A DNA stretch of 64,000 nt from Thermoplasmata archaeon (GCA_015063165.1 SUSZ01000001.1:62001-126000); one strand, 5' to 3'. Shown: positions 9,410 through 40,900, counted from the stretch's first letter. Made by a program: numbers and translations. Notes: generated from the sequence alone by a model not told the origin.

Positions 9410-9944
9410 GGACCGCCTGGCCTTCCTTGATCATCTCCGGGCGCATGATCTCCTCGGTGGCGACCACGGTGATCACGTTCCCGTCCATCAGGACCTTGCG
9501 GTTCTTTATGCCCTCAGGCATGGTCCTCCAGATGGCGCCCAGGATCTCGCGCTTGTCCTCCTCGCCGGAGGAGACGACGATCTGTGCGATCTCCTCCTCC
9601 TTGGCTCCGATGACGTCGAGGTCGAAACGGGTCTGCTGGACGACCGCCCTCCTGCCGTACTTCCCCCACAGGGAGGAGAGGATGGCGGGGGCGTAGCGCT
9701 CCTGCACTATGGTCAGGTGGATGTTGTTTGCCTCCACCCTCACGTTGGACACGTCAGGTATGGTCTTGACCGTAGGCTCCGCCTTCAGGACGATGGAGAA
9801 CACGAACAGCGGGGTCTCGGGCCTGAGGACTAGCTTCGCCTTCTCTATGAGGACGGCCTTGTTCAGGTCGCTCATTATATCGTCGAACAGGTGGGAGTAC
9901 GCGTCGTTCCCGAACCCGTCGTCGCCTATTACCTCTATTTCCAT
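9378..9944 (-). CDS. mmp17: Methanogenesis marker protein 17
   Basis: 188 aa, gene order mmp7-mmp17-mmp15 and protein features. Confidence 0.8.
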   Translation of the reverse strand: MEIEVIGDDGFGNDAYSHLFDDIMSDLNKAVLIEKAKLVLRPETPLFVFSIVLKAEPTVKTIPDVSNVRVEANNIHLTIVQERYAPAILSSLWGKYGRRAVVQQTRFDLDVIGAKEEEIAQIVVSSGEEDKREILGAIWRTMPEGIKNRKVLMDGNVITVVATEEIMRPEMIKEGQAVHEGMGGAEVV

Positions 9945-13542: not shown

Positions 13543-14159
13543 CAGAACTCACGCTCCGGAAGCATCGACTGCACCTTCGAGACTATCTCGTCCAGCTTGT
13601 CCTGCGTGCAGGTGACTCCCCTGACGACTCCGGTGACTATGTGGACAATCTCCCCCTTGGTCTGGATCTTGTCGTCCGGAGGCATGACCTGGGAGGTCTT
13701 GATCCCGACGGCGGCGAAATCCTCGAAGTCGATAGGGCACTGGGCCACGACTATGGCGGGGATGTTGACGTTCCTGAGGATCAGCCTGGCCTTGTAGATG
13801 ATATGGGCCCTGACGTTTCCCAGATGGATCAGCGCCACCTTGTACTGCTGTAACCTCTCGACCTCTATGGGGTCGAGACCGAAGCAGGACCCGGTGGTCA
13901 TGTCGGGAGCGTCCGCAGGGACTCCCGAGCCCGCGTTCACGACGAGGACGCTGGTATCGATGCCTTCCTCGCGAAGCGCGTACGTGATCTCGCACACCGG
14001 CTTGGTGATGTGCCTCCTACCGGGACCCATGGCTACCGCCACGACGTCTCTCCCGGACTCGGATATAGTGGCTCTCTGGGCGAGCCCTCCTCCGACACCC
14101 AGTCCCATCGATTCCCTGCACTCGACGAAGCTGAGGTGTCTTCCCATCTTCTGCTTCAA
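13542..14159 (-). CDS. mcrC: Methyl-coenzyme M reductase operon protein C
   Basis: [21 protein letters not shown]...[38 protein letters not shown]. Confidence 0.9.
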
Positions 14160-15769
14160 ATCTCTTCACCTTCGGGTACTGGCTCCATGTTGAATTCCTC
14201 GAGGATGGCCTCGGGCTCGCCGATGGAGACTACGGTACCGTTCTTCATGAAGGCGGCGCGGTCGCAGCAGTTCATCACGAAGTCCATGTCGTGGCTGACG
14301 ACGATGAACGTCTCTCCAAGGGTCTCCCTGGCTCTGATGACGGATTTGGCGACGATGGTCTTGGTGATCGGGTCCATGGTTCCGGTAGGCTCGTCGAGGA
14401 TGATGATGCGGGGCTCCTTGATGAGCACCTGGGCGAACGCGATCCTCTGGCACTCTCCGACGGAGAGGGAGTCGGGATAGGCGTAGAGCGTGTTCTCGAT
14501 GGTCTCCTTGGGGAATCCGACGCTCAGAAGGACCTGGATGGCCTTAACCTTGGCCAGCTCCGCGGGCATCTTCATGCCTATGCAGGTGGTGAGGTTCTGA
14601 AGGACGGTGTCAAACGGGTACAGGGTGTACTCCTGGTGGAGGACCCCGATGTAGGGGGTCGCCCTTCCCTTGCCCGCGAATCCGCTCTCGGACATATCGA
14701 CCCAGTCGTCTCCGATCTTGATCGAGACCTTGCCGGAGGTTGCGGGGGTCATTCCGGCGATCATACGGGAGGTGGTGGTCTTTCCTGCTCCGGAGTATCC
14801 GATCAGGGCGAAGACCTCCCTCTCCTTGATGTCGAAGGTGACGCCGTCGACGGCTTTGACGACTCCCCTGACGACGGAGAAGTAGTGCTTCTTGGCGTCC
14901 TCGAGCTTGATGATGGGCTCTCCGAGCTTCCCTGCAGCCTGCTTCTCGAAGTGGTAGTCCTTCATGAACAGCTCGGTGACCTTAGCCGGGTCGCCCTGCA
15001 TCTTGACATCTCCGGCGTCCAGGAAGATGGCCTCGTCGGCCATCCTGGTGATGGCCTCGGGCCAGTGGGACGCGAAGACCATGCAGATGTTCATCCTGCG
15101 GACGTAGTCGATCAGGGACTGGTGCACGATCTCGGCGGTGGTGGGGTCGAGGGTTCCGGTAGGCTCGTCGGCGAGGAAGAACAGAGGCTCCTTGGCGAGC
15201 TGCCTGGCCATGACCACGCGCTGCTTCTCTCCTCCGGACAGGTCCCTCGCGATGTGGGTCGTCCTGTGGGTCATGTTGACGGCCTCGATCATCTCGATGG
15301 CGCGGCTGACCCTTTTCTCTCCCTGATAGTCGGGGGTGACGGCTTCCATGACGTTCTCTATCACGGTCTTGTCACCGAAGAGGGCGAACGTCCTCTGGAG
15401 CATGATGGCGACATGCGCCTTGACGGCGGACCTTATGGGGTCGTCTTCCTTGAGCTTCCAGAAGTCGACTGTGATGGTCTCGGTCTCTCCCCCGCACTTG
15501 ACGCAAGGGACGCCGGGGAACGGCAGGTCCAGATCGCCGCATTTCTTACAGTGGTTGACGTGATACAGAACGCGTCCTTTGTCAGGCGCATACTCCTCGC
15601 TGCCTCTCAGCATGTGGATCAGAACGCTCTTTCCTGCGGCGCTCTTTCCTACGAGCCCTAGTATCTTCCCAGTGGTAAGCTTGGCGCTGATGTTCTTCAG
15701 AACGCACCGTCCGTTGAAGGACTTGGAGACGTTCTCGATAGTAAGAAGGTCAACAGAGTCTTTAGCCAT
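14156..15769 (-). CDS. atwA: Methyl-CoM reductase system component A2, twin ABC ATPase
   Basis: Two Walker A ([22 protein letters not shown]) and two signature motifs ([18 protein letters not shown]); likely start [16 protein letters not shown] at 15769. Confidence 0.9.
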
Positions 15770-15919
15770 GTTTCTTGAACAGTCTTTCCCAATAAATAGT
15801 ATGTGAGTGAGGACGGATTTGTTAGTATCGTTAAATCCAGCATTACGCATAATCGAGGACAACGTCGCTCCGAATCGCCACCACGATTAATTTATAAGTT
15901 GGATACACCATGTATCCAT

Positions 15920-16882
15920 ATGATGTCCGGTTCAACCAAAATGGGCGGGCCGCTCCCGAAATTCAACGATTATCACCTCTGGAAGGCGCTAGACAGCCTC
16001 GACAACAAGAGCCCCATCGGCAGGAAGAAGCTGGCGGAGGTTCTGGGGATAGGCGAAGGCAGCACCAGAACCGTGATATCGATCCTGCAGGAACAGGGGC
16101 TGATAACCATCGGGAAGAGCGGGATCCTTCTGACCAACAAAGGAATGGAGTTCAAGAAGAAGACCCATATGGACATCGTCCGCGACATCGGAGCCAGCGA
16201 CCTCACCATAGGCGAGAAGGACGTGGCCGTCCGCGTGCCGAAGATGGCCAACACGGTCAAGTTCGGCTGCGAGGAGCGCGACACCGCGATAAAGTCAGGG
16301 GCGACCGGAGCAACCACGCTGATATATTCCGGCGGGAAGCTCATGTTCCCGGGATCCGACTATCCCGTGGACAAGGTCCTGCAGGACAGGATCAAAGCGA
16401 AGCTCCCGCTGAAGAACGACGACGTCATCATCATAGGGACCGGACCCACGGACAAAGCCGCGGAGATGGGAGCCGTCAAGGCAGGGCTGGAGCTCATGGG
16501 AGGGCTCAGGTTCAACCGCGAGCTCGAGGACATCCTCTCCTCGCGCAGCACCGGCAACGAGCTGATCTCCCTGGCGTTCGCCATCCACGACCTCGTGGGA
16601 GGGCTTCCCGTCTGCGCCAAGAGCAGGGACAACCTCGGAATAAGGATCGAGAACGGAAAGGTCATCGACAACGCGTACACCGGACAGGTGCTCGAAGAGG
16701 TTATAAACGCTGGAACCACGATACGCAAGGTAGCGGTTTCCGGACCGTACAAGGGCATAAGGGTGATCGTTACGCCCATCGAGCTGGACAGCCGCATCAT
16801 CGCAGCGATAGGGGTGGTCGACATCAGGTCGATGGCCGGGATCGACAACCTCATCAGGCTAAGGAGCGACGACAATGACTGA
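15920..16882 (+). CDS. HTH-type transcriptional regulator fused to DUF2111-type domain
   Basis: KFNDYHLWKALDSLDNKSPIGRKKLAEVLGIGEGSTRTVISILQEQGLI winged-helix start; C-terminal DUF2111-like region. Confidence 0.6.
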   Translation: MMSGSTKMGGPLPKFNDYHLWKALDSLDNKSPIGRKKLAEVLGIGEGSTRTVISILQEQGLITIGKSGILLTNKGMEFKKKTHMDIVRDIGASDLTIGEKDVAVRVPKMANTVKFGCEERDTAIKSGATGATTLIYSGGKLMFPGSDYPVDKVLQDRIKAKLPLKNDDVIIIGTGPTDKAAEMGAVKAGLELMGGLRFNRELEDILSSRSTGNELISLAFAIHDLVGGLPVCAKSRDNLGIRIENGKVIDNAYTGQVLEEVINAGTTIRKVAVSGPYKGIRVIVTPIELDSRIIAAIGVVDIRSMAGIDNLIRLRSDDND

Positions 16883-17228
16883 CGATAACGCGGAGTGCAA
16901 AGTCGTGGTGGACGCGGGCGTCTGCAAAATGCGCACCCTCATCACCGCGAAAGAGGAGATGGGAATGATCCACATCGACATCAAGAGCGACTGCCCCAAC
17001 GTGCTGAAGATGTCCTGGAGCCTCGAGCCCATCAGCGCCTACTCCGAGGTGGAGGCCAACATCCACGCTTCGGAGATCTACAAGCTGGCAGACGAGAACA
17101 TCCCTCATGCGGCATGCCCCGTGATGGCCGGGATCATCAAAGCCATAGAGGTCGCCGGCGGCCTCGGACTCAAACGCGACTGCTCCATCCATTTCGTCGA
17201 ACCCGGCGAAGTGATCGAGATCAAATGA
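16875..17228 (+). CDS. Conserved methanogen hypothetical protein
   Basis: 117 aa, overlaps upstream gene 3' end; VDAGVCKMRTLITAKEE...HAACPVMAGIIKAIEVAGGLGLKRD. Confidence 0.7.
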   Translation: MTDDNAECKVVVDAGVCKMRTLITAKEEMGMIHIDIKSDCPNVLKMSWSLEPISAYSEVEANIHASEIYKLADENIPHAACPVMAGIIKAIEVAGGLGLKRDCSIHFVEPGEVIEIK

Positions 17229-17334
17229 GATCCCGACACCAGCCAGCACCTGAAAAACCACTGTCAAACAAGGGTATGACGGCAAAATAATGCGATTGCA
17301 TACCTATTTTTATACCGACTCCCATCCAGCCATT

Positions 17335-17892
17335 ATGACAGCAGATCCGGACGCGCCCGGAGACAAGCAGCTGGAGATAATCCGCGGGCTCAGGGGCGTC
17401 ATTCACGCATTCTATCTCGATAAAGAGATACTGGCAGAGCTCGAGAAAGAGGAGGCCAAAGTCCGTGCGATGGGTAACATAGAGGTGGATAACCAGGGAT
17501 TCAAGCAGGCCTTGGAGCGCGACGCCGTCATATGTATCGTCAAGGACCCCAGATTCAGACCCCCGCCGGAACCCACGGTCATCCTGGTATCCGGAGAGGG
17601 CAACGTCATCGGGGAAGAGGTCTTCCCGTTCACCGCCCACAAGTACACTTCCAGAGAGGATGTCGTCTGGCTGTCGGACGGGTTCGTCCTGTTCCCGACG
17701 GTCGCGGCCAGCGGAGGGGAGCAGTTCGTCATGCCTCCCGTTTCTTTCCCGGAGCTCAACGAGAGCAACGGATGCAAGGACGTCATATCCTGCAGCCCCG
17801 CGCCTACCAGCGACCTCATGATCAAGACCCACTACGGACTGGTCGACAACCCCAAGCTGGCCTCGGTCCTGGTAGCTTTCAACAGAATGTGA
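17335..17892 (+). CDS. Conserved hypothetical protein
   Basis: MTADPDAPGDKQLEIIRGLRG...; TATA-like TTTTTATACC ~25 nt upstream of ATG 17335 suggests a leaderless start. Confidence 0.65.
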   Translation: MTADPDAPGDKQLEIIRGLRGVIHAFYLDKEILAELEKEEAKVRAMGNIEVDNQGFKQALERDAVICIVKDPRFRPPPEPTVILVSGEGNVIGEEVFPFTAHKYTSREDVVWLSDGFVLFPTVAASGGEQFVMPPVSFPELNESNGCKDVISCSPAPTSDLMIKTHYGLVDNPKLASVLVAFNRM

Positions 17893-17946: not shown

Positions 17947-20067
17947 ATGGTCTCCAACGTCGTCGAGGGGCTCAGAGGAGCACGTCTGCTTTGCATCGGC
18001 TGCCGCGCGTGCGCCAACGCCTGCGAGCAGAATGCGATCACTCTTCACCCCGACGAGGAGGGCTTCTTCAGATCCAGAGTCTTCTCCCACCTTTGCGTGG
18101 AATGCGGCAGATGTTCCGCCGTCTGTCCGCAGCTCAGACGCTCGTACGGCCACAAGACCGCGGTGTACGCCATGAGGGCAGACTCCGAATCCGTCAAGGC
18201 CAGCTCCTCCGGCGCAGTCTTCACCCTTCTGGCCAGATGGGCATTCGAACGCGGAGGCTGCATCTGCGGAGCCATCATGGGTCCCGACATGAAGACCAAA
18301 TATGCAATCGCCGAGAGCCTGGACGAGATCCAGCCTATGCGCGGGATCAAGAACACCTACAGCGACATGGGATTCATCTACAAGAGCGTCAGGGCGAGGC
18401 TCAACCAGGGGAAGGACGTCGTGTTCGTCGGACTCCCCTGCCATGTCCAGGCCGTCAAGAACTACATCGGCGACAACAGCCGCCTTTGGACCGTCGACAT
18501 CGCCTGCAACGGACAGCCCTCGCCTCTCATCTTCGAGAAATACCTGGCGGAGCTTTCCAACGGAAAGACGATATCCAGCATCGTGTTCAGGCCCAAGGGG
18601 GAGACCCCGGACACCCTGTCGGTCACCTACGACGACGGCAGCACCAAGGTTTCCAACAAGGACCCATACCTCAGAGCGCTGGATTCCAGGCTTCTGATCA
18701 ACCAGGCATGCTCCAGATGCCAGTTCGTGAAGCTTCCCCGCACCGGGAACATCACCATCGGAGACTACGCCAAGGGGAACCCGAAGGAAGGACAGAACAC
18801 GAACGTGGTCATCGTAAACGACGACAGGGGAGCGTCCCTTCTGAGCGACATCATGGACATCTCCGAATATATGAGCCCGGTCCAGATCTCCGCCCTGGAC
18901 AAGAACAGCGGATTCCAGGAGAGCCGCGACCTGAACCTGGGATGGATAAGGCTGTTCCATATGGTCGCCCGCGGACATTCCGTCTCCAAATCAGTCCGCT
19001 ACTGCCTCGGATGGAAGTTCGACGTCGGGATCACAGGATTCTGGCGCGTCATGAACTACGGCGGAGAGCTCACCTACTACGCCCTCTACCACATCTTCCA
19101 GGATATGGGGCTGGAATCTATACTGATAGACTACCGGAGCAACACGGAAGGGGCCCCGCAGAGCCCTCCCCTCCTCAAGACCCAGTACCCGTTCTACAGC
19201 ATAGCCCGCTGGTACAAGACGAAGAAGGAGCAGGAGGAGCTCAACTCCAGGGTCACCACGTTCGTCGTCGGCTCGGACCAGGTCTGGAACAGGCGTTTCG
19301 TGGACCAGGACACCCTGGAATGCTACGCCCTCGACTTCGTCCACGACGACAGGAACAAGGTCTCGGTCGCGGCCTCCTTCGGAACCGACCGGTTCGAGGG
19401 CAGCGAAGCTGAGCGCGAGTCCTTCGCCAGGCTCGTCAGAAGGTTCAACCACCTTTCCGTCCGCGAGAAGTCTGCCGTAGATATCTGCAGGGACATGGGG
19501 GCCGAAGCCACCATTCTCATGGACCCCGTGATGCTGTGCGACATCCGCCACTTCGAGGCCCTCGCAGAGGCTTCCACGGCCAGGTATCCCGAGCGCTACG
19601 TGTTCAACTACATGATGTTCGCAGTGAACTTCATCGGGATGGAAGCCATCTACAAGAAGCTGGGCTACGGCCCGATCACCGTGGGGAACGCCAACGCTAA
19701 CCTCGAGGACAAGATCGAGTACCCCAGAACGAACGCCGGATCCCTCGAGAACTGGATGAAGTGCATCAAAGGGTCCTCCTTCGTCGTCACAGACTCCTTC
19801 CACGGAACCGTCTTCTCCATACTTTTCAAGAAGCAGTTCATCACACTGATAGGGAACTGGGGAGAGAACTCCGGAGTCGGAAGGATAACCACCCTTCTGG
19901 GCATGCTGGGGCTGGAGAGCCGCATCTTCAAGACCCCGAAGGAAGCGGTGGAGTCCGGCGTGATGGACGACATCATCGATTACGACGAGGTCTACGAGAA
20001 GCTCGACGCCAACCGCGAAGAATCGATGAAGTGGCTCAGGAACGCCATCCTCGGCGGATCCGACTGA
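17947..20067 (+). CDS. [4Fe-4S]x2 - FrhB/FdhB - polysaccharide pyruvyl transferase fusion, paralogue 1
   Basis: CIGCRACANACEQNAI / CVECGRCSAVCPQL ferredoxin motifs; FVGLPCHVQAVKNYIGD; GITGFWRVMNYGGELTYYAL; VVGSDQVWN; VTDSFHGTVFSI. Confidence 0.85.
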   Translation: MVSNVVEGLRGARLLCIGCRACANACEQNAITLHPDEEGFFRSRVFSHLCVECGRCSAVCPQLRRSYGHKTAVYAMRADSESVKASSSGAVFTLLARWAFERGGCICGAIMGPDMKTKYAIAESLDEIQPMRGIKNTYSDMGFIYKSVRARLNQGKDVVFVGLPCHVQAVKNYIGDNSRLWTVDIACNGQPSPLIFEKYLAELSNGKTISSIVFRPKGETPDTLSVTYDDGSTKVSNKDPYLRALDSRLLINQACSRCQFVKLPRTGNITIGDYAKGNPKEGQNTNVVIVNDDRGASLLSDIMDISEYMSPVQISALDKNSGFQESRDLNLGWIRLFHMVARGHSVSKSVRYCLGWKFDVGITGFWRVMNYGGELTYYALYHIFQDMGLESILIDYRSNTEGAPQSPPLLKTQYPFYSIARWYKTKKEQEELNSRVTTFVVGSDQVWNRRFVDQDTLECYALDFVHDDRNKVSVAASFGTDRFEGSEAERESFARLVRRFNHLSVREKSAVDICRDMGAEATILMDPVMLCDIRHFEALAEASTARYPERYVFNYMMFAVNFIGMEAIYKKLGYGPITVGNANANLEDKIEYPRTNAGSLENWMKCIKGSSFVVTDSFHGTVFSILFKKQFITLIGNWGENSGVGRITTLLGMLGLESRIFKTPKEAVESGVMDDIIDYDEVYEKLDANREESMKWLRNAILGGSD

Positions 20068-22184
20068 TATCGGACCAGCGAGTCCAGGATCCAGGAAGAG
20101 GTGTCCTTGCGAAGCTCGTCCAGCTTCCTGTGCACCTCGTCGTAGTCGATATCATCGTGAAGGACGCTTGAATCCGCGACCGAGCCGTAGTCGTAGAACA
20201 TCCTGTCCTCGAGCCCCAGCATGGTCAGCAAGGTCTTCACCCTTCCGTTGCTCGCGGAATCCGCCGACACGGCGATGAAAGGCCTCCTGAACATTATCGC
20301 AAAGGCGACAGCGTAGTAGGAATCGGTCAGGACGAGGGAAGCGCTCTTGATGCACTTGAGCCAGTTCTCGACGTAGCACACGTTGGTGTTCGGCAGGCCG
20401 CCCTTGACGTTGTAGTCGCTCATGGAGCTGCCGATGTTCAGAGAGCCGATCCCGAACTCGTCGAGCACGGCTTCGTAGCCCTCGAGGCCGCGATGCATCA
20501 TATAGGCCATCACGAACCCGCTGGGGAACTCCGCCCTGGACCTCTCGATGAGATCGTCGTAATGGGACGGGTCGCAGATGAACACCGGGTCCAGGACGAG
20601 CTTGGCGTCCACGCCGAACCTCTCGCATGCCAGCCTGGTGGACTCGTCGTTGACGGACACCCTGCTCAAGTCTCTGACGAGCTCCTCGAACCTCAGGCGC
20701 TCGTCATCGGACGCACCGTACGTGTCCGTTCCCATTACGGACGCGACGGATATCTTGTTCCTCCAGGAAGACACGAAATCCAGGGTGTAGCAGCCTACGA
20801 CGTCCTGCCCGATGATCCTCCTGTCCCAGATGGGCCCAGGCCCTGCGACGAAGTTGTAGACCCTGGCTCCCAGCTCTCCCTGGTCGATGGGGTTCTTGTA
20901 CCATCTCGCGCGGCTCAGAGCGGCGTAGCGGGTCCTGAAGAGGCTGGGCTCCTCAGGAATGCCCTGGATGTCGCTCCTGGCCTCGATGAGCAGCGGCTCC
21001 AAGCCGTTGTCCCTCAAGAACATGTAGAGGGCGTAGTAGGATGCCTCTCCGCCGTAGTCGTTGACGCGCCACAGCCCGGCGATCCCGACGTCGAACTTTC
21101 CGACGAGGCTATAGTCAACCGCCTTCTTCACGGTGAACCCGCGATCCAGCATGCTGAAGAACCTTCTCCTGGCGTTGTGGACGGGAAGGTCCGGCGCGAA
21201 CCTGTTGAAGCGCTTGACGAATCCCAGCGGCACCTCGCGGATGTACGAAGCCTTTCTCTTGATGTCGCTGAACATCTCCTCTCCCTTCCTGGAGTTCACC
21301 AGGACGACGCTCACGCCTTCCTCGGCATCGATGTCGCGGATGTACCTCTCGGCTCCCCAGAGATCGCCTATGGTGACGTCGCCGGGCTTGGGGGTGTCGG
21401 AGAAGAGGCAGCCGTTGCAGGCGTTGCTCTTGATCAGATGCCTGTTGAAAGCCGCATAATATTTGTCGCCGAGGGACACCTTCCTGGTTCCGTCGGCGTA
21501 CTCTATCACGAGAGTCCCATAGGACTGCTCCTTCGATCTGAATATAAGGTTGGAAACGGGTTTTTCGGCAGAGATTTCCTCGAGATACCTGCGGTAGACT
21601 CCCTTGGACGGCTGTCCTCCGCATAGGATATCCGCAGTGTACAGACGCTCGTCGTCCCCGATGTAGTTCTTCAGAGCCTGCACCTGGCAGGGGAGGCCGA
21701 CGAAGAGGACGTACGACTCGCTGAGGGCCTTCTTGACCTCGTCATAGATGCCGCGCATCTCGCTGTAGACGTACTTGGACCCGCGCATCCTGGCGATGAC
21801 GTTCCTGTCCTTAGTGATCGCGTAGACGACGTTCAGCTCGTCGTCGAAGACCGCTCCGCAAACGTAACCGCCCTTGGACAGGATCCACTCGGCCAGAAGG
21901 GTGAACGCGCCTCCGGATGAGCTCTTGGCCAGAGTCTCGGGATCCGCCTTGAAGGCGTAGCTCGGAGGAGAGGCATTCCCTTCGGACGGACCCGTCAGCT
22001 GCGGGCAGACCTTAAGGCAGGCCCCGCAGTCCTTGCAGGCCGTTCCGATGACGGAAGCCTTGTTGAATCCGTCGGGATCCATCTCCATGCGTATCGCATC
22101 GAACTTGCAGACGCTGTTACAGGCAAAACAACCGATACAGGTCCTTTTAGACTCGGCAAGCTGGATCTCGACGTTCGCGGCCAT
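19992..22184 (-). CDS. [4Fe-4S]x2 - FrhB/FdhB - polysaccharide pyruvyl transferase fusion, paralogue 2
   Basis: CIGCFACNSVCKFDAI / CKDCGACLKVCPQL; FVGLPCQVQALKNYIGD; GIAGLWRVNDYGGEASYYAL; VLTDSYYAVAFAI. Confidence 0.85.
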   Translation of the reverse strand: MAANVEIQLAESKRTCIGCFACNSVCKFDAIRMEMDPDGFNKASVIGTACKDCGACLKVCPQLTGPSEGNASPPSYAFKADPETLAKSSSGGAFTLLAEWILSKGGYVCGAVFDDELNVVYAITKDRNVIARMRGSKYVYSEMRGIYDEVKKALSESYVLFVGLPCQVQALKNYIGDDERLYTADILCGGQPSKGVYRRYLEEISAEKPVSNLIFRSKEQSYGTLVIEYADGTRKVSLGDKYYAAFNRHLIKSNACNGCLFSDTPKPGDVTIGDLWGAERYIRDIDAEEGVSVVLVNSRKGEEMFSDIKRKASYIREVPLGFVKRFNRFAPDLPVHNARRRFFSMLDRGFTVKKAVDYSLVGKFDVGIAGLWRVNDYGGEASYYALYMFLRDNGLEPLLIEARSDIQGIPEEPSLFRTRYAALSRARWYKNPIDQGELGARVYNFVAGPGPIWDRRIIGQDVVGCYTLDFVSSWRNKISVASVMGTDTYGASDDERLRFEELVRDLSRVSVNDESTRLACERFGVDAKLVLDPVFICDPSHYDDLIERSRAEFPSGFVMAYMMHRGLEGYEAVLDEFGIGSLNIGSSMSDYNVKGGLPNTNVCYVENWLKCIKSASLVLTDSYYAVAFAIMFRRPFIAVSADSASNGRVKTLLTMLGLEDRMFYDYGSVADSSVLHDDIDYDEVHRKLDELRKDTSSWILDSLVRYQSDPPRMAFLSHFIDSSRLASSFS

Positions 22185-22271
22185 GTTCAGGAGTAAAGAT
22201 TCAAGGTATAAATATTGAGCAAAAAACAGCACGACCAAAGAACATTTTTATCTTGCAGTAGATGGAGAGCT

Positions 22272-24467
22272 ATGGCCAATATCGTCGATGCGCTCACGGA
22301 CTCCGAGAAGAAATGCGTAGGGTGTTCCTCATGCATGAACACGTGTCCGAAGAATGCGATCAGCATCGTCACGAACGAAAGAGGATTCCTCAGACCGTCC
22401 GTGGATCCAACCCTGTGCATCGACTGCGGCAAATGCGTGAAGGGATGCCCTGCTCTGAACTCCGAATCTCCTAAAGGCAACATGAAACAGCCCAGAAGCT
22501 ACGCCTTCGTCGCCGAGGACCGCATCCTGTCCAGGAGCTCCTCGGGAGGAGTGTTCTACGTGCTGGCCGACTGGGCTCTCCGCAACAACGGATGCGTGTG
22601 CGGAACGGTCTACGACGACGATTTCAACGTGGTCTACAAGCTGACCGACGACAGGAAGGTCATCTCCAGGATGCACGGATCGAAATATGTCGTCAGCGAC
22701 ATGGGAACCGTGTACAAGGACATCAAAGAATGTCTCGACAGCGGCAGGATGGTCCTCTTCTTCGGACTCCCCTGCCATGTCAGCGCCCTCAAGATGTTCA
22801 TCGGAGAGAACGAGAACCTGTACACCATCGACCTCATCTGCTCCGGGCTCCCGTCCAAGACGGTGTTCCAGCAGTACCTCCGGGAGCAGTCCGAAGGCAA
22901 GAAGATCAAGGACGTCCTGTTCCGCAGGAAAGGCCTTCCATACGGGACCATGGTCATCAGGTTCGACGACGGCACGAGCAAGGTGAACTACAACGACGCA
23001 TTCATCGCGGGATTCAACAGAAGCCTTTACAAGAACGAATGCTGCACCAAATGCGACTTCGCCGCCCCTCCCCGCCAGGCCGACCTCACGATAGGAGACC
23101 TCTGGGAATCCGAGAAGATGTTCCACGATTTCGACAGCAGTAAGGGGGTGAGCTGCGCCCTGGTGAACAACGCCAGCGGAAGGAAGCTCCTGAGCGTGCT
23201 GTCCAAGCATGCGGCTTTCCTCAAGGAGGTGCCGTACGACTTCGTCAAACGCTTCAACAGGCTGAATCCCACCCGCGAGGCGCATCTTGCCCAGCCGAGA
23301 TTATACCACATGCTCGAGAACGGGCACAGCGTGGAGAAGTCGGTCAAATACTGTCTGAAATGGAAGTTCGATGTGGGGATAACCGGCCTATGGAGAGCCC
23401 CTAACTACGGCGGGAACCTGACGTACTACGCCCTGTTCCACATCATCGAGGACCTCGGGCTGGAGCCTGCCATGATCGAGGCCCGCAGCAAGGACGGTGG
23501 AAGAGTTCCGATGAGCCCCAAGCGCCTGATGAACAGGTATCCGATGTACTGCATCGTGCCTTGGGCCCACGACAAGGACCACCAGATGGAGATCAACCAC
23601 CGCGTCTATACCCTGCTCGTGGGCTCTGACCAGGTATGGAATGCGGACCTGTTCCCCAACAACCCCGAGATCCTCCTCTCCTACGCCCTTGACTTCGCGG
23701 CCAGCTGGCGCAACACCGTCGCGTACGCTTCATCCTTCGGAAAATCCGTCCTCATCCCCGGCACCGATGTAGAGAAAGCAGAGGTTGAGGCCATTCGCAA
23801 CATAAAGCACGTGTCCGTTCGCGAGAAGTCGGGAGTGGGCATATGCAGCAGCTTCGGAGTCGAAGCCACTCACGTCCTGGACCCGATGATGCTCTGCGAC
23901 ATGAAGCATTACATGAGGCTTCTCGACACCGCCACGATAACGGTTCCCGAGCGCTACGGGCTGTGCTTCGTGAGGCACACCGGCGATCATATGGACCCCA
24001 ACAGGCTGAGCAACTACCTCGACCTCCCGTTCCTCAACGTCGCAGGGCCCGGGATAGACCTCAACACGGCGGTGACAGACTATCCCCTGATAAACGTGGA
24101 GACGGTCGAGAACTGGGTCAAGACGATATATCGCTCGGACTACGTCCTCACAGACTCCTTCCACGGTGCCGCGCTGTCCATAGTCTTCGGAAAGCAGTTC
24201 ATAGCCGTGTACGGGGCTATGAGCGAGGAGTCCGGGCTGGACCGCTTCAAGTCCCTGCTGGGAATGTTCGGGCTGGAGGACCGCCTGTATCCGACCACTA
24301 TGGACGCCTTGACGGACCATGCGTATTCGAGAACCATCGACTACGAAAAGGTCCACCGGAGGCTGGACGAGCTGCGCGCGAGCTCTCTGTCATGGCTCAA
24401 GGATGCCTTGGAGATCGACCTCGACGGTCAATCGAGCTCTCAAGCCACTGAAGGGAATCCTTCCTGA
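22272..24467 (+). CDS. [4Fe-4S]x2 - FrhB/FdhB - polysaccharide pyruvyl transferase fusion, paralogue 3
   Basis: CVGCSSCMNTCPKNAI / CIDCGKCVKGCPAL; FFGLPCHVSALKMFIGE; GITGLWRAPNYGGNLTYYAL; LVGSDQVWN; LTDSFHGAALSI. Confidence 0.85.
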   Translation: MANIVDALTDSEKKCVGCSSCMNTCPKNAISIVTNERGFLRPSVDPTLCIDCGKCVKGCPALNSESPKGNMKQPRSYAFVAEDRILSRSSSGGVFYVLADWALRNNGCVCGTVYDDDFNVVYKLTDDRKVISRMHGSKYVVSDMGTVYKDIKECLDSGRMVLFFGLPCHVSALKMFIGENENLYTIDLICSGLPSKTVFQQYLREQSEGKKIKDVLFRRKGLPYGTMVIRFDDGTSKVNYNDAFIAGFNRSLYKNECCTKCDFAAPPRQADLTIGDLWESEKMFHDFDSSKGVSCALVNNASGRKLLSVLSKHAAFLKEVPYDFVKRFNRLNPTREAHLAQPRLYHMLENGHSVEKSVKYCLKWKFDVGITGLWRAPNYGGNLTYYALFHIIEDLGLEPAMIEARSKDGGRVPMSPKRLMNRYPMYCIVPWAHDKDHQMEINHRVYTLLVGSDQVWNADLFPNNPEILLSYALDFAASWRNTVAYASSFGKSVLIPGTDVEKAEVEAIRNIKHVSVREKSGVGICSSFGVEATHVLDPMMLCDMKHYMRLLDTATITVPERYGLCFVRHTGDHMDPNRLSNYLDLPFLNVAGPGIDLNTAVTDYPLINVETVENWVKTIYRSDYVLTDSFHGAALSIVFGKQFIAVYGAMSEESGLDRFKSLLGMFGLEDRLYPTTMDALTDHAYSRTIDYEKVHRRLDELRASSLSWLKDALEIDLDGQSSSQATEGNPS

Positions 24468-26553
24468 GGGCTTCCAGCTTCTCGAACACGGCATCGTAAT
24501 CGATAGAGCGATTCGGAGCATCCGCAGCTATAGCGTCGGCGGTCGTCTTGAACAGACGGTCGTCCAAGCCCAGCAGGCCGAGCATGGAGGACATCCTTCC
24601 TGTTCCGGAGGCCTCGTCCATGCGGCCGTAGACCGTGATGAACGGCTTCCTGAACAGGATGGCCAGAAGGGTCGCATGGAACGAGTCCGTCAGCACGAAG
24701 CTGGCCTGGCTTATGGCCTTCATCCAGTTCTCCACGTCGCGGACGTTGGTGAGCGGATACGGAGCTGGCTCGTTGTAGTCGTAATCGGGACCTCCGACGT
24801 TGACCGCCATCAGTCCGAGATAGGACGACATGGCCACAGGATCCATGTGGACGTTTATGTGGCGTATGAACGCGAGCATGTACTCGGGAGGGAACGACAT
24901 GTCGGCCCTGTCCATGAGTTCTTCGTAATGCCCCATATCGCACAGCATGACTGGGTCGAGTACATGCTTGGCCTCCATGCCGTACTGCTTGCATATGTCC
25001 ACACCGGAGATCTCCCTCACGGAGATGTGCTTGATACGCTTCAGGATACGGATGTGCTCCTCCTTCTCCGGGGTGTCCGCCTTGTAATCGGTGGTCCCGA
25101 ACGAGGACGCGTAGGCGATGGAGTTGCGCCAGGAAGAGACGAAATCCAGGGAGTAGGTCTTCAGTCCGTTGGGAGAGAGCAGCTTAGGATTCCATACCTG
25201 GTCCGATCCCACCATGACGTTCTTCACGCGAAGGTTGATCTCGGCCTGCCTCTCCTTGCTGGCGTACCACGGTGCGATGCTGTAATCCGGGTACTTGAAC
25301 TTCATGTGCTCGGGGCTGGGAGGATGTCCCACCGGCCTGGGGATGCACGCTTCCACGAATATCGGCTCCAGACCCATGTCCAGGATGACGTTGTACAAGG
25401 CGTAATAGGTGAGGTCCCCGCCGTAGTTGGGCGCCCTCCAGAAGCCTGTGATGGCCACGTCGTACTTCGAATTGATGGAGTAGTCCAAGGCCTTGGTGAC
25501 GCTGCAGCCGCGGTCCAGAAGGTACTGGAACCTCTCTGTCGCCTGACCCGCAGGACGGACTGCGTTGAACCTGTTGAAACGGATCAGGAACGAAGGAGGG
25601 ATCTTCCGGAGATACGAAGCCTTCTTCGATATCTCGCTGAACAGCGTCTTTCCCTTCTCGCTGTTGACAAGCACGCAGCTTATGCCTTTGGATCCGTCCA
25701 CGTCGTAGAGGATCTTATCGTAGTTCCAGAGGTCTCCGATGGTAACGTCCCCTTGTCTGGGAATGGTCGCGTACTCGCAGTCGGCGCAGGCGTCGCTCTT
25801 GAACATATGCCTCAGGAATCCCGTGAAGTACGGGTCCCTGAACCTCATGTCCTGGCTGCCGTCCTCGCGGTCGACGACCAGCGTCCCGTAAGGAAGCCTG
25901 CTGTCGCGGAACACCAGATTTGTGACCTTCCCGTCCTCCGAAAGCTCCTCGAGATATCTTCTGTAGATCCCCTTCGAAGGAAGGCCGGCGCACAGGAGGT
26001 CTGCGGTGTAGAGGCCGGGAGCGCCTTTCATGAATCCCTTCACTGCCGCTACCTGACAGGGACAGCCGACGAACAGGACCTCCTTACCGTCGCCCAGAGC
26101 CTTCTCGATATCCTTGTATATCGTCCCCATCTCGCTGAACACGTACTTCGACTTCTGCATCCTGCGCACAGTGTCCAAGTCCTGGGTCATGGTGTAGACG
26201 GCGTTCAGATCGTCGTCGAACACCACCCCGCACACGTATCCTCCGCGGGAGAGCATCCATTCCGCCATAGGCATGAAGGCTCCTCCGGAAGAGCTTCTCA
26301 TGACCTCCTCGTCCGACGCCTTGAACGCGTAGCACTGGGGCTTGGGGCTGTTCTCGTGCTTTATGTTCAGCTGGGGGCAGGCGCCTACGCACAATCCGCA
26401 GTCGACGCATGAGAGCATGTCCACCACCGCCATGCAGTTGCCGTCGTAATCCGTTGCCATGGTTATGGCATCGCGAGGGCAGACGTTCAGGCAGGCATAG
26501 CATCCGCAGCAGGCCTTCCCCCTGCCGCGCAATTCCATAGACATGTCGGTCAT
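24397..26553 (-). CDS. [4Fe-4S]x2 - FrhB/FdhB - polysaccharide pyruvyl transferase fusion, paralogue 4
   Basis: CCGCYACLNVCPRDAI / CVDCGLCVGACPQL; FVGCPCQVAAVKGFM; AITGFWRAPNYGGDLTYYAL; MVGSDQVWN; LTDSFHATLLAI. Confidence 0.85.
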   Translation of the reverse strand: MTDMSMELRGRGKACCGCYACLNVCPRDAITMATDYDGNCMAVVDMLSCVDCGLCVGACPQLNIKHENSPKPQCYAFKASDEEVMRSSSGGAFMPMAEWMLSRGGYVCGVVFDDDLNAVYTMTQDLDTVRRMQKSKYVFSEMGTIYKDIEKALGDGKEVLFVGCPCQVAAVKGFMKGAPGLYTADLLCAGLPSKGIYRRYLEELSEDGKVTNLVFRDSRLPYGTLVVDREDGSQDMRFRDPYFTGFLRHMFKSDACADCEYATIPRQGDVTIGDLWNYDKILYDVDGSKGISCVLVNSEKGKTLFSEISKKASYLRKIPPSFLIRFNRFNAVRPAGQATERFQYLLDRGCSVTKALDYSINSKYDVAITGFWRAPNYGGDLTYYALYNVILDMGLEPIFVEACIPRPVGHPPSPEHMKFKYPDYSIAPWYASKERQAEINLRVKNVMVGSDQVWNPKLLSPNGLKTYSLDFVSSWRNSIAYASSFGTTDYKADTPEKEEHIRILKRIKHISVREISGVDICKQYGMEAKHVLDPVMLCDMGHYEELMDRADMSFPPEYMLAFIRHINVHMDPVAMSSYLGLMAVNVGGPDYDYNEPAPYPLTNVRDVENWMKAISQASFVLTDSFHATLLAILFRKPFITVYGRMDEASGTGRMSSMLGLLGLDDRLFKTTADAIAADAPNRSIDYDAVFEKLEALRKDSLQWLESSIDRRGRSPRHP

Positions 26554-26638: not shown

Positions 26639-26659
26639 GGAGGAGGCTTATCCTCCTCC
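26639..26659 (-). terminator. Hairpin at end of mcr/DUF2098 transcript
   Basis: GGAGGAGG-ATAAG-CCTCCTCC perfect 8-bp stem whose loop contains the DUF2098 stop codon; looser T-rich sequence downstream. Confidence 0.45.
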
Positions 26660-26932
26660 GGAAGGCATGAACTCGGTGATGTCGACCTCTTCGGTCTCCC
26701 TCGCGATGTCCTCCACGGACTTCATGCCTCCCTCATACGAAGAACGCTCCTTAAAGGAGACCTCGATGTACTCGGACGGGTCCGCGGGAACGAGGTTGGA
26801 CGACTCGTAATACAGATCGGTAAAGTCCAGCCTGACCCAGACCTTGCCATCCTTCTCACGGATGTCCGTGACCTTCCCGACTGTCGCCGTCGGAACATAC
26901 TTCTGAAAGTCTCCGATCTTCAAGGCAATCAT
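26648..26932 (-). CDS. DUF2098 family protein
   Basis: 94 aa; [27 protein letters not shown]; start overlaps mcrA stop. Confidence 0.7.
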
Positions 26933-28587
26933 CCTTTGATGACAGCGCTTCTCTCACCGGCGGGCTGGAACTCCCTGAGGGCTCCGCGTCCGATCTCCTT
27001 GGTGATGTTGGCGAAGTCGAAGACCAGCGAGGGGTCAGCGAACGCAACTCTCACGAAGGGGTTGGCGGTGAAAGCGTCTCCGCGTGCGACGTGGGCGGCC
27101 TTGGGGATACCGGTGTATCCGGAGAGGTGTCCGACGTTCATTGCGTAGTTGGGGTAGTTAGGTCCACGGACCTCCATGGGGAGACCCTCGTCAGACCTGT
27201 AGGCGAAGGAGTTGGCGGAACCGCACTGGTCCTGGAGGTCGAATCCGTAGAATCCGAGCCTTCCGGTCCTCTCTTTGTGCTGGAGCATGGAGAGGTACCA
27301 GCAGTTCAGTCCGACATCGGCGACTCCGGTAGCCATCGCACCGGCGATTCCAGTGGAAGCCGCAGCGACGGTAGCCCTCTGGGATCCTCCGAAGTGGGTC
27401 TCCATGACGGCGGGGTACCTCTCGTACATCTCGAGAGCGTAGGAGTTGATGTCGTCTCCGAGTTTCATGACCTCGTCCATGTTGGCGGGGTCGAGTTTGC
27501 AGAATCCTCCGTACCTGTCTTTGATCTGGTCGATGGCGTAGTAGACGTAGTCCTCGAGGATGTTGTCGGTGTACGCAGCGGTGGCGTACTGGGTGAATCC
27601 GACTCCTCCGGACATGTATCCGCCGAGGTAGATCTGGTCGAAGACGGCGGCTCCGAGGGCGACTGCCTCGAGGGCTGCGCGTCCAGGGTCGTCAGCGTAG
27701 ACACGGTCGGACTGAGCGATATCGGCCATGTATCCGAAGGGGATTCCTCCGGGCTCGTTGGGTCCCCTGGCACGCCTTGCGGGCATCATGGTTCCCATAG
27801 CGAGGGACTGGTGCTTCGCGGAGTATGCGAAGTCAGCGATTGCGGCTTCTCCTGCTGCGAGTTTGTACGCGGAGATGAAAGCCATGGAGATCTGCATGGC
27901 TGCGTGCCTGGAAACGGTGGCACCATCCATGAGCCTTCCGACGATGGTAGGAACACGGACAGCCTGCATGAGGGTCTTTCCGATAGCTTTCTTCAGCTGT
28001 TTGGCCTGGGCCTTGGGGAACAGCTTGTTGATGTCGATGACGAACCTGGAGTCGATCTCGTCGATGAGCTCGTCGTCTCCGGAGAAGACTTTGACGTAGG
28101 AGTCGTAGACGAGGGCGGGGTTGACCTCGGCCATGTGCTCCTGAACGACTGCTCCACCGGGCATGGTGTGGTTGACGGTCTCGAGGTACTGGTTGATGGT
28201 CTCGGGGGTAACCTCTTTTCCGAGCCTTCTCTCGATGGTCTGGTGAGGGGAGTCGAGACCGACGAGGATGGTCCTCCTGATATCGTCCCAAGCCTGCTGG
28301 ATAGCGCAGTTGTTGACGCAGTGCAGGTCGTCCGCCTCAGCGTAGATGTCGGTGTGGGACAGCTGGTAGGGCATCCAGCTCCTCTGTCCGAGAGGAACTC
28401 CGATGTCCTCGTTCATCATGGGGATTCCACGCTTCTTCGCGATCTTCATCGCGGCTTCCTGGAACTCGACTTTCGACTTGGACTGTTTCCATCCACCATA
28501 GCAGTAGTACTTGGTGGACATGTCAGTGGGCTCTTCTTTGAACTTCTTCTTGCATGCTTCCATGAACAGCTTCTCTTTTCCTGCCAT
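26929..28587 (-). CDS. mcrA: Methyl-coenzyme M reductase subunit alpha
   Basis: [16 protein letters not shown]...; [19 protein letters not shown] active-site region; [18 protein letters not shown]. Confidence 0.98.
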
Positions 28588-28592
28588 GGTAA

Positions 28593-29366
28593 TCACTCTC
28601 CCTTAACCTTCCAGGGCTGGTATCCGCCGAGGGTCCTCAGCTTGTGGATCCTGAGTCCGTATTCGGTGACCTCTTTGTCATCTCTCATGTCGACGCCGTC
28701 GGCTCTGAAGATGGTGGTCCTCTTCTTCAGGTCAGCCATTGCTGCGGGCTTTCCGACAGAGATTCTCCTGTCGAGAGGAATGGCGACCTGGTCTTTGACG
28801 TAGACGACCTCTTTCTTCTGAGCGTCCCAGACGTACCTCTGCCATCCGTCGAACATAAGTCCGTTCTCGTCGAGACGGCATGCGTGTCCGTGGACGGTCG
28901 CTCCCCTGATTCCGGTGAGGGCGGGGTCGAAGGTCTCGTTGTCGATCATCTCTTTGGCCATGCGCTCGAGGTCTCTCTCACGGACCTCGATGATCTGCCT
29001 TCCGGAAAGGGTTCCGGTGTCGATTCCCCTGTACCTGGAGAGGTACATCCAAGCCCTCTGGTAGGGCGAGATGGGAGCGAAGTAGACGGAGTCGGTGAAC
29101 TGGATGTACCTGACACGGTCTCCGTGTTTTGCTCCCTCGATGGGGGTGACGAGTTTCCTGATAGGACAGTCGGGCTCTTTTCCCTCCTCTATTGGGGGGT
29201 GGATGGACTTGTAGTCCTCTCCGGGGTTCCTGTGTCCCATGATCCTTACGACGTCGTCGAGAGGAACGTCGCGAAGCTTCTTGAGCTTGACCTTGGGATC
29301 CATGTATCTCCTCCTGTTTTTAGCAGGGGTGGTCTCTCCAGGGTAAAACTGTCTCTTGTATGCCAT
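28593..29366 (-). CDS. mcrG: Methyl-coenzyme M reductase subunit gamma
   Basis: [24 protein letters not shown]...[20 protein letters not shown]. Confidence 0.97.
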
Positions 29367-29368
29367 AT

Positions 29369-29803
29369 TTATGCACTCCTATAATCATGAAGCGTGGGCC
29401 TGTATTTCGAGTACCTACCTACCTGAAGGCTGTATCCATGCTCGATATGCTCGTTGCATGCAGCCTTTATTTGATCCAACCTGGCCTCGAGGATCTCTTC
29501 GTCCTCGACATCGAGCTCGATGTAGAAGCCTCCGACAAGATAGCGGAGTTCGACTTCCTGACCGCCGACGTGGATGATCCTCCTCTCGGAGTGATTGTTG
29601 TCGAGCCCCTTTCCAGGACCGTTGTTGATAGTCTTGGGGAGGCTCTCTCCAGTCATGTTGATCTGCCTGATGTCAGGAATGACGTCGAGGGCGTTCAACA
29701 GCTTCTCGGTGGTCTCTGCGCTCAGAAGGCGGTTGGTGATAATCTGGACTTCGGGAAGAGGCTTCCCAGCGTAGTCCACGGTTGGCTTAGCAGGTGCTGA
29801 CAT
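29369..29803 (-). CDS. mcrD: Methyl-coenzyme M reductase operon protein D
   Basis: PEVQIITNRLLSAETTEKLLNAL...; position between mcrB and mcrG. Confidence 0.85.
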   Translation of the reverse strand: MSAPAKPTVDYAGKPLPEVQIITNRLLSAETTEKLLNALDVIPDIRQINMTGESLPKTINNGPGKGLDNNHSERRIIHVGGQEVELRYLVGGFYIELDVEDEEILEARLDQIKAACNEHIEHGYSLQVGRYSKYRPTLHDYRSA

Positions 29804-29813
29804 TCACAGGGCC

Positions 29814-31142
<1,329 letters not shown>

Positions 31143-37917: not shown

Positions 37918-40900
37918 TCATTCCTTGGGCTCAGAGTCCTCAGGATCCGAGCCCCTGGACTTCTTAAGGTAGTAGCGCACAAGATAGCCCAGCATCACGG
38001 CGGCGGCCGCGAAGAACAATATTGCCAGCAGCAAGGAGTTCTTCTCCACCCATCCCTCTTCCGGCTCCACGCCGCTCACGTCCTTGGTGACGTCCAGCCT
38101 GTCGAGGCTCTTCTCGGTCACCTTTCCGTCCTGATCGGTGATGGACAGGTCGACCTTCTCGAGCGTAACGTTCAGGACATCTCCCCTCTTCAGGTCCACC
38201 AGCAGCTTCTTGATGCCGATCTCGGTGTTTCCGTAGGAGCTGAGCACTGTTGTTCCGTCGTTTCCGTACACGCTCATGTCTCCGGAGGACAGCAGGACCC
38301 TGGTCTCGTACGTGAAGTCGCTGTCCAAAATCGCAGGGAGGATGGCCAGGAGGCCTTCCTTCTCATGGTCGTATCCGTCGACGTTCAGCTTTCCATGGGT
38401 CAGAGAGGTGACGGAGTCGCTGCTCTCTATCCTGAACTCGACATCGTAGTAACTGAAGTCCAGATTCCAGGGCAGGTACAGGTTGGCGGAGAGCGCGACG
38501 TCCTCGCCGAAGTCCGCCTCGAATCCTCCAGATGCCTCGTCGGTCTTGAGGGTGAGATAGATGATTCCTCCATCGTCGTTGACCACGGACTTGTCGTATA
38601 GGACGATGGAATGGCCGATGGCGGAGAGCTTCCCATCGAGATACGTCATGTTCTTGTAGTCAGAATGCTCCATAGACAGGACAACCGTCACGTACTTCGG
38701 AGAGGTATCGGACATCTTCTCGTTGGAGATGGACAGATAGTCCTCCCCGTTCTTGTACTCGACCAGCAGGCTCTCGTTGGACAGATGGATCTCCGCGCGG
38801 GTCTCCTCGGAGAAATCCTCTCCGTAGAAGAATGCGTCGATGCATTCGGTTATGGAGCCTTCGGTGATTACCACTACTTCGGAAGCGTCAGAATGGACGT
38901 CGACGGTTCCCTTCTCCAGCTCGATCGTGGTGGTGAGCTCTTCGAATCCGAAGGACATGGTGTTCAGCCCGAGGATGCTCTTGCTCAGAGAGGCCTTCAC
39001 ATTGGATAGTGTGGCGTCGTACGCATCGTCGGAATCGATGTCAGCAGAGATGCTGGCTACGCTCATTCCGAGGCTGTTGCTGCTGTCTATCAGCTGCTGG
39101 ATGGTGATCGTCTCGGTCTCGGCGATGATATCGTAGACGGTCTTGATGTCGAATCCACTCATATCAAAGACGAGATCTTCCAGCACGAACTTCAGAGAAG
39201 TGCCGACATCGGACGAGAAGGGCAGGCTCAAGACCTTCCTGGAAGTCTCCTCGTCCATGTCCACCTCGATGGTGGCGGTGTATCCCGAAGTGTCGAGCTT
39301 CCCGCTGAGAGTGCTCCTATCGTTGTATAGGATATAGCTCAGGTCCAGATCGAGCGTGAACGGGTTGCTCAAAGTCTCCTCTCTGGGGACCAGGGACAGA
39401 CGGTAGGAGGCACCGTCCTTATCCAGGCAGAGTCCCAGCCCCTTGCTGCTAAGCGATATGTCCATGTTGGTGTCTTCTGTGAACTCCATTCCTCCGAGTA
39501 TCAGCTCGGTCAGATCCGAGAACGGAATATCGGATGAAATCGTTGTCTTGGTCTCGTTGGCATGAAGGTCGACGATCATCCCGTAGATGGGGACGGCGAC
39601 CTTGGCCTCCTCCATCTCGAAGGCGACAGCGGCATGGCCGCTGGAATTCCTGGAGAGCCCGGCGCTTGAGTTGACCACGAATGCGTCTATCTCTCCGTCT
39701 CCGTCCCATTCGACCTCTGCGTAATCGGTCGAGAGGAGGAGCGAGCCGCAATTATCGAGGAGCTGCTGAAGTTCCAGGCTCTTGTTCTTCTCGTAGAGAT
39801 CCAAGAGCTCAGCGATGTTGAGATCACCGATGCTGAGGCCTGGATCTACGGACATGGCATGGAGGTCGTCTCCCTTGACAGGGACCTTTCCGTAGTGCAG
39901 GCCATGGCTGTCGAACACAAGGGTGTACCCTACAGTGCTGGCATCAAAGCTTAGCAGAGTCCCCGAGGTATCCTCGGTATGGACGAGGTTCGCATACAGA
40001 GAAATCTCAGGAGAACCGGTATCGTCCGTCTCCGTGAGCGAGAACGAGATGGCCTCGCCGGAATAGGTCATCGATGCATCGCACATGGACGCATCCAGGC
40101 CTATCTCGGCATCGGAGTCGAACTTCAGATTGCTGATGATGTCGATCAGCTCCGAGAAGGTCGTGGTGGAAGAGAGGTCCGCGGACAGTCCGACGGCTTC
40201 GAGCTCGATCTCGCCGTCCTGCACAGGAGCGGAGACGCTGATGGACTGGGACTCCACATGGACGGTGCTCTTCTTGTCTGCGCCTGCTTCGAGTGCAGGG
40301 CTTGTCATGTGCATCGCGAGCTTCTCGCCTTCGTCCATCTTCACTGACATATGCGATGCGGAAACGCCGATGGACTCGCAGCGGTCCAGCAAGCCCGCGG
40401 AAACGGTTCCGTCCTCTTCATAGGCTGAAAGGATCGCGGCTATATCCGCTGCGACGACCGACAGATGCGGATCCTCGACCACCAGATCCAAGCCGGTTCC
40501 GTTGCCGATATCGTCGACTTTCACGGTCATACCGTATCCGACCACATCGAGAGTCAGGTCTACCAGGGTCTCGGCCTCTCCCTCGGAATGGATTAGGGAA
40601 GCGGTGACGACGACTGTCGGTGCGACGGGACCGGAGTCGGAATAAGTAACGACTATATCGGAAGGGCCTCCGGAATAAGTGACCTTGAGGCCGGTGAACT
40701 TCGCTCCCAGGATCATATCGACATCCGATTCGAACTCGAGATTGTTATCGATGGCGTCCATGATCTCGTTGAAAGATGTGTCGGACACCAGATTGATGGA
40801 TGATGTTCCCGACCTGGCATCCAAGGTGCCGTTGTCGGAAGGCACATGGACCGACATGACATCGTAGTCGACGGCGAGGACATACCTACTGAACGAGCTG

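Follow-up and report, generated by a model that had tools for sequence, protein, structure and literature searches.

Opposite halves are degenerate in two members of an archaeal array of reductase-pyruvyl transferase fusions, suggesting that the halves act as a team in surface-sugar modification

Described relatives and architecture of the array

Polysaccharide pyruvyl transferases (PF04230) such as CsaB of Paenibacillus alvei and Pvg1p of fission yeast combine a GT-B fold with PEP-binding Arg and His residues, and in CsaB the substitutions R148K/Q and H308A/R abolish activity (PMC10435577). The FrhB-like fold occurs in FrhB, in FpoF, and in the F420-dependent sulfite reductase Fsr, which have the same ferredoxin-FrhB domain order and the same FrhB-domain cysteines as the proteins described here and whose hosts make F420. 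It is also found, together with Fe-S clusters, in 7-hydroxymethyl chlorophyll a reductase (HCAR, 5dqr; PF04422/PF04432), which uses ferredoxin and works in a host without F420, as appears to be the case here. In Bacteroides, Pseudobutyrivibrio, and Ruminococcus, the same two modules, as annotated, are encoded by neighboring genes.

In the 64,000-nucleotide stretch of archaeal DNA that we analyzed (the window), from a lineage that we read as Methanomethylophilaceae, four paralogues of about 710 amino acids each, P1 to P4, are encoded in + - + - order (Table 1). Each consists of two [4Fe-4S] motifs, an FrhB/FdhB region, and a polysaccharide-pyruvyl-transferase-like (PvT) domain. They differ from CsaB and Pvg1p in being fused to an Fe-S/flavin reductase, from HCAR in that the reductase is fused to a glycan-type transferase, from Fsr, FpoF, and FrhB in that the archaeal genome lacks CofD and CofE, and from the bacterial pairs in being fused and arrayed beside mcr. 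P1, P3, and P4 share the GT-B fold and the Arg/His pair with CsaB and Pvg1p, whereas P2 is without both key residues. Among the papers searched, none describes an FrhB-PvT fusion or array of this kind.

Table 1. Features of the array and its flanks (window positions)
Feature	Position	Strand	Evidence
P1 (copy 1), fusion; PvT intact, FrhB eroded	17947..20067	+	Pfam, family alignment, dN/dS
P2 (copy 2), fusion; FrhB intact, PvT without CsaB R148 and H308 equivalents	19992..22184	-	Pfam, alignment, structure model
P2 N512 at the conserved Arg site (SVRE to SVND), CsaB R148 equivalent	20649..20651	-	Family alignment; CsaB mutants (PMC10435577)
P2 Y624 at the conserved His site (TDSFH to TDSYY), CsaB H308 equivalent	20313..20315	-	Family alignment; PMC10435577
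P3 (copy 3), fusion; both halves intact	22272..24467	+	Pfam, alignment, AlphaFold2, Foldseek
P4 (copy 4), fusion; both halves intact; best conserved copy versus G068	24397..26553	-	Pfam, alignment, dN/dS
Putative divergent P2/P3 promoter region (ATG to ATG), 87 bp; TATA-like TATAAATA near 22208	22185..22271	.	By eye
Flank: o26648, then mcrA, mcrG, mcrD, mcrB	26651..31142	-	
Flank: mcrC, atwA (component A2) on -; DUF4443/DUF2111 regulator-like gene, DUF6951, o17290 on +	13545..17889	.	

The domain architecture proposed in a sequence-only reading of the window is borne out by Pfam matches in each copy to Fer4, FrhB_FdhB_N, FrhB_FdhB_C (E values of 2e-16 to 2e-20), and PS_pyruv_trans (7e-11 to 3e-31), with PF04230 scores of 42.9 to 110 bits against a gathering cutoff of 25.3 and FrhB/FdhB profile scores of 61 to 73 bits against a cutoff of 23.3. 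Its coordinates for the four reading frames, both 3' overlaps, and the 87-bp head-to-head gap were reproduced exactly, and of the VxGSDQVWN and TDSFH motifs that it reported in all four copies, only those of copy 2 fail (VAGPGPIWD and TDSYYA). Pairwise identity among the copies is 39 to 48% overall. Across the 100 members of the fusion family, the four cysteines of the FrhB-domain [4Fe-4S] site (C165, C187, C255, and C258) are 100% conserved, and the twelve cysteines together with the PvT Arg and His are conserved in 95 to 100%. The PEP-binding pair equivalent to CsaB R148 and H308, an equivalence drawn from the motif and from a family alignment without the CsaB sequence itself, is kept in P1, P3, and P4. 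The position of CsaB R306 is Ser in all 100 members and is not diagnostic; we discarded the idea that Ser instead of Arg in the TDSFH/RLH motif marks a different chemistry, given that an exo-cluster homologue of Sinorhizobium meliloti (probably ExoV) also carries Ser.

An AlphaFold2 model of P3 (pLDDT, 92; pTM, 0.88) gave Foldseek matches to FrhB-type subunits and, strongly, to HCAR over one half, with F420-reducing subunits as the best matches, and to Pvg1p (5ax7; E value, 7e-7) over the other. No FrhB-PvT fusion spanning both halves was among the top matches listed, and a PDB sequence search with the PvT half gave no relevant match.

TATA-like boxes, identified by eye, lie about 20 to 35 bp upstream of each of the four starts, which is consistent with four separate transcripts. 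The convergent 3' overlaps of P1/P2 (19992-20067) and P3/P4 (24397-24467) are present in the window species, persist for one pair only in the same-genus genome G069, and are absent in G068 and G060. Because these two relatives do not conserve them, a function of the overlaps is unlikely, and we rejected them as a means of regulation.

Three further fusion copies (C17:42523-44613, C17:132221-134359, and C24:39045-41129) make seven in the genome, which are all of its PF04432 (FrhB_FdhB_C) matches. The C24 copy (L018:9009-11129) contains an in-frame TAG (around 9669-9671) at a position that is Tyr in homologues; this may be read through, given that the order uses pyrrolysine, or may be a nonsense mutation. 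It adjoins an AIPR-family (abortive infection) gene (L018:11133-13223). Against a defense library, P3 showed a weak match only, over its ferredoxin stretch.

Reciprocal degeneration of P1 and P2

What is new here is that P1 and P2 have degenerated reciprocally. We scored the columns with a conservation of 85% or more among the 79 nonarray members (41 in FrhB and 35 in PvT), for which the 95th percentiles of background losses are 4 and 6, respectively. The P1 orthologues of four species have lost 9 to 14 of the 41 FrhB columns versus 3 to 4 of the 35 PvT columns; in P1 of the window, the FrhB changes include W275A, Y136N, D268N, and S134I, and all 12 Fe-S cysteines are retained. The P2 orthologues, in contrast, have lost 14 to 15 PvT columns, including the Arg (to N, G, or C) and the His (to Y), versus 2 to 5 in FrhB. 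P3 and P4 show 4 to 5 FrhB and 7 PvT losses. For the window pair, the P1/P2 loss pattern has a Fisher p of 1.5e-4. Loss of the catalytic residues, which if common to all PvT domains would have told against the sequence-only reading, is confined to copy 2. Its PvT half is still predicted to fold, with a match to Pvg1p that is weaker relative to epimerases, and we predict it to be folded but transferase-dead.

Selection follows the same division. In comparisons with G069 and G068, dN/dS of P1 is 0.33 and 0.46 in FrhB versus 0.18 in PvT, and that of P2 is 0.27 and 0.36 in PvT versus 0.14 and 0.27 in FrhB; in the closer pair, G068-G060, the shift is not clearly visible. All domain values are below 0.5, so the altered halves remain constrained rather than functionless, with purifying selection on the degenerate domains themselves (omega, 0.06 to 0.46). 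That P1 and P2 have each lost the opposite half suggests that the halves act as a team in surface-sugar modification.

Likewise, in bacteria, a fusion at L132 that has lost the same Arg and His has an intact stand-alone PvT within its locus, and fusions with a degenerate FrhB half (L113 and L083/L072) have an intact FrhB module nearby. An extra module is present in 3 of 3 degenerate-half loci versus 8 of 62 others (p = 0.004), in a small sample with L072 and L083 counted once, thresholds set post hoc, and any extra module counted in the intact loci. Of note, Clostridia have stand-alone PvT-like genes without this Arg/His pair in the neighborhood of intact fusions (L117:6957-8183, L121:3400-4557, and L123:6756-8114), so residue-altered PvT paralogues recur as companions.

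Proposed chemistry and its rivals

Our preferred reading, to which we give even chances, is that the array is a two-module, F420-independent set of glycan-modifying enzymes. The glycan-modifying role, which had already been proposed from sequence, gains support from the Pfam matches, the Foldseek match to Pvg1p, and the glycan-cluster neighbors of the bacterial relatives. Because of the HCAR/FrhB-type fold match and the twelve conserved cysteines, we propose a path from ferredoxin to flavin: electrons would pass from cellular ferredoxin, the presumed donor, through the two N-terminal [4Fe-4S] clusters to a third cluster at the four invariant cysteines and on to a putative flavin of the FrhB-like domain, a route like that of HCAR. 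The PvT-like domain, with its GT-B fold, would transfer a PEP-derived unit to a sugar, with PEP as the putative donor and a glycan as the putative acceptor, and the flavin domain would carry out a reduction within the same pathway. P3 and P4 would have both activities, P2 would serve chiefly as a reductase and P1 chiefly as a transferase, and P1 and P2 might cooperate.

Conceivably, PEP transfer yields an enolpyruvyl or pyruvyl adduct, and reduction of this adduct then gives an O-lactyl (1-carboxyethyl) ether. The likeness to MurA/MurB lies in the proposed logic only, namely, PEP addition followed by flavin reduction to a lactyl ether; the folds are unrelated. By this analogy, lactyl-ether chemistry may be the likeliest product route, a suggestion that we put forward as tentative. 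Certain Klebsiella capsules supply a further clue. According to one survey, the K8, K22, K37, and K66 loci contain pyruvyltransferase genes, yet their capsules are without pyruvate (PMC4616057), and, according to another report, in part through a title that it cites, the K22 capsule carries 4-O-[(S)-1-carboxyethyl]-GlcA and has a sugar sequence in common with K37 (PMC7246685). K22 and K37 cannot both rely on an FrhB reductase, however, since the survey lists only one "coenzyme F420 hydrogenase," along with two nitroreductases, among 79 loci (PMC4616057). A search of Escherichia coli genomes for FrhB-PvT DNA, aimed at serotypes of known structure, gave no matches, and in the literature we found no biochemistry for any FrhB-PvT pair. 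If the lactyl-ether reading is true, a pathway would be assigned to a known sugar modification for whose enzymes we found no description, and methanogens would have adopted a bacterial surface chemistry. The widest version of this reading we consider rather doubtful: FrhB-PvT as a widespread, unrecognized route to O-lactyl ethers, a ferredoxin-driven analogue of MurA/MurB that passed from gut bacteria to rumen-type methanogens and that, within the array, has diverged into proteins with the reductase function only, the transferase function only, or both.

The best-surviving rival, which is possible although we lean against it, is that an ordinary ketal-forming pyruvyl transferase is fused, for efficiency only, to an independent reductase acting on the acceptor sugar or on a nucleotide sugar. 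The PvT half does match the ketal former Pvg1p, P1, P3, and P4 keep the Arg and His that are essential in CsaB, and some relatives have the two halves in the opposite order or encode them separately. By itself, however, this arrangement explains neither the frequent pairing of the modules nor the spare in the same locus that covers a ruined one. We find it improbable that the Fe-S/flavin half instead gates the transferase, sensing the ferredoxin pool and regulating transfer without catalyzing a step. Such a sensor would fit P1, which keeps all 12 cysteines despite losing other conserved FrhB columns, but not P2, which in four species joins a near-perfect FrhB half to a dead transferase, nor the bacterial versions encoded by separate genes.

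An F420-linked system, as the sequence-only reading had it, finds a parallel in the top Foldseek matches but is very unlikely because neither CofD nor CofE has a match in the archaeon's own genome (99.86% complete) and CofE is absent from 11 of the 13 other host genomes searched, including all three archaeal ones, and the ferredoxin-using HCAR also matches strongly. F420 as the FrhB partner is thus judged indirectly, from missing synthesis genes, and, by analogy with HCAR, a reductase half dependent on ferredoxin and flavin is the better reading. Where an FrhB gene adjoins a pyruvyl transferase in gut polysaccharide loci, it is annotated as an F420 enzyme in hosts with no apparent F420 synthesis. 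The residue pattern offers a concrete, testable alternative to that annotation, and paralogues that each miss one half amount to a natural genetic experiment.

Origin, stability, and genomic setting

The FrhB-PvT fusion is not unique to the array but widespread in bacteria, with hosts among gut Clostridia, Desulfovibrionaceae, Alphaproteobacteria, Gastranaerophilales, Brachyspira, and Puniceicoccales. When 100 fusion proteins were placed in a tree, the 21 array-type archaeal sequences fell into a single clade (support, 100) with Ruminiclostridium and Lachnospiraceae proteins as sisters (support, 99), and the array was apparently acquired from gut bacteria. Gut Clostridia would have been the source of the fusion, which then duplicated within the archaeon, ahead of the split of the four species, and specialized. 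Other archaeal copies (G096/G098, C120/C13, and C17a/C50) branch among bacterial sequences, which implies further transfers. Each paralogue clade (P1, P2, P3, P4, and X, a fifth copy located between P1 and P2 in G068 and G060) has one member per carrying species with a support of 100, so the paralogues are old and have not been homogenized. The gene conversion for which a check had been suggested has left no wholesale trace in these clades. Nor do the copies make up the variable surface set that was once envisaged: they are orthologous 1:1 across four species and under purifying selection and, with copy-by-copy orthologues in three related species, form a stable set rather than a phase-variable one.

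The bacterial fusions neighbor genes for GT2, GLF (UDP-galactopyranose mutase), rml (rhamnose), ABC-2 export, and acyltransferases. As adjacent separate genes, FrhB and PvT occur in capsule or polysaccharide loci of Bacteroides, Pseudobutyrivibrio, and Ruminococcus albus (Clostridia). Some family proteins have their halves reversed, and some carry hexapeptide-acyltransferase-type or Sel1 extensions. One fusion reading frame (L053:4724-8338, - strand) has a PurS domain in frame at its C terminus, perhaps because two genes have been joined without a stop codon between them.

In this rumen-type methanogen of the Methanomassiliicoccales, the array is located between the mcrBDGA operon-o26648 and o17290/DUF6951/DUF2111/atwA/mcrC. 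It occupies the same site in the same-genus genomes G069, G068, and G060, with an identical + - + - order in G069. Five relatives (G053, G077, G050, G063, and G008) have both flanks and no array, the gap being filled by 0.35 to 1.9 kb of other sequence. In three of them, unrelated genes were seen there: a kinase-like gene accompanied by one for a membrane protein (L151:5081-6668; named by eye), an MFS transporter-like protein (L154:7842-9776), and, in G008, a YcaO gene for McrA-glycine thioamidation (L156:9385-10807). Across the family, the mcrA-o26648/o17290 gap serves as a site of variable cargo. We rejected the position beside mcr as evidence for a link to methanogenesis, since the array-less relatives keep the flanks with other genes between them.

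The P1 orthologue of G069 (L049:6872-9553, - strand) has a C-terminal extension of about 176 amino acids antisense to its neighbor, as if a stop codon had been lost. Elsewhere in the window, a giant reading frame of 3,023 amino acids (37918-46989, - strand) is devoid of tandem repeats and matches nothing in Pfam or PADLOC. The archaeal copies do not lie within glycan clusters, a point against the glycan-modifying reading. The genome has eleven GT2-family matches, all on other contigs; glycan synthesis therefore exists in this archaeon, although the array is not beside it. One of the GT2 genes (C55:13226-13708) contains two in-frame TAGs.
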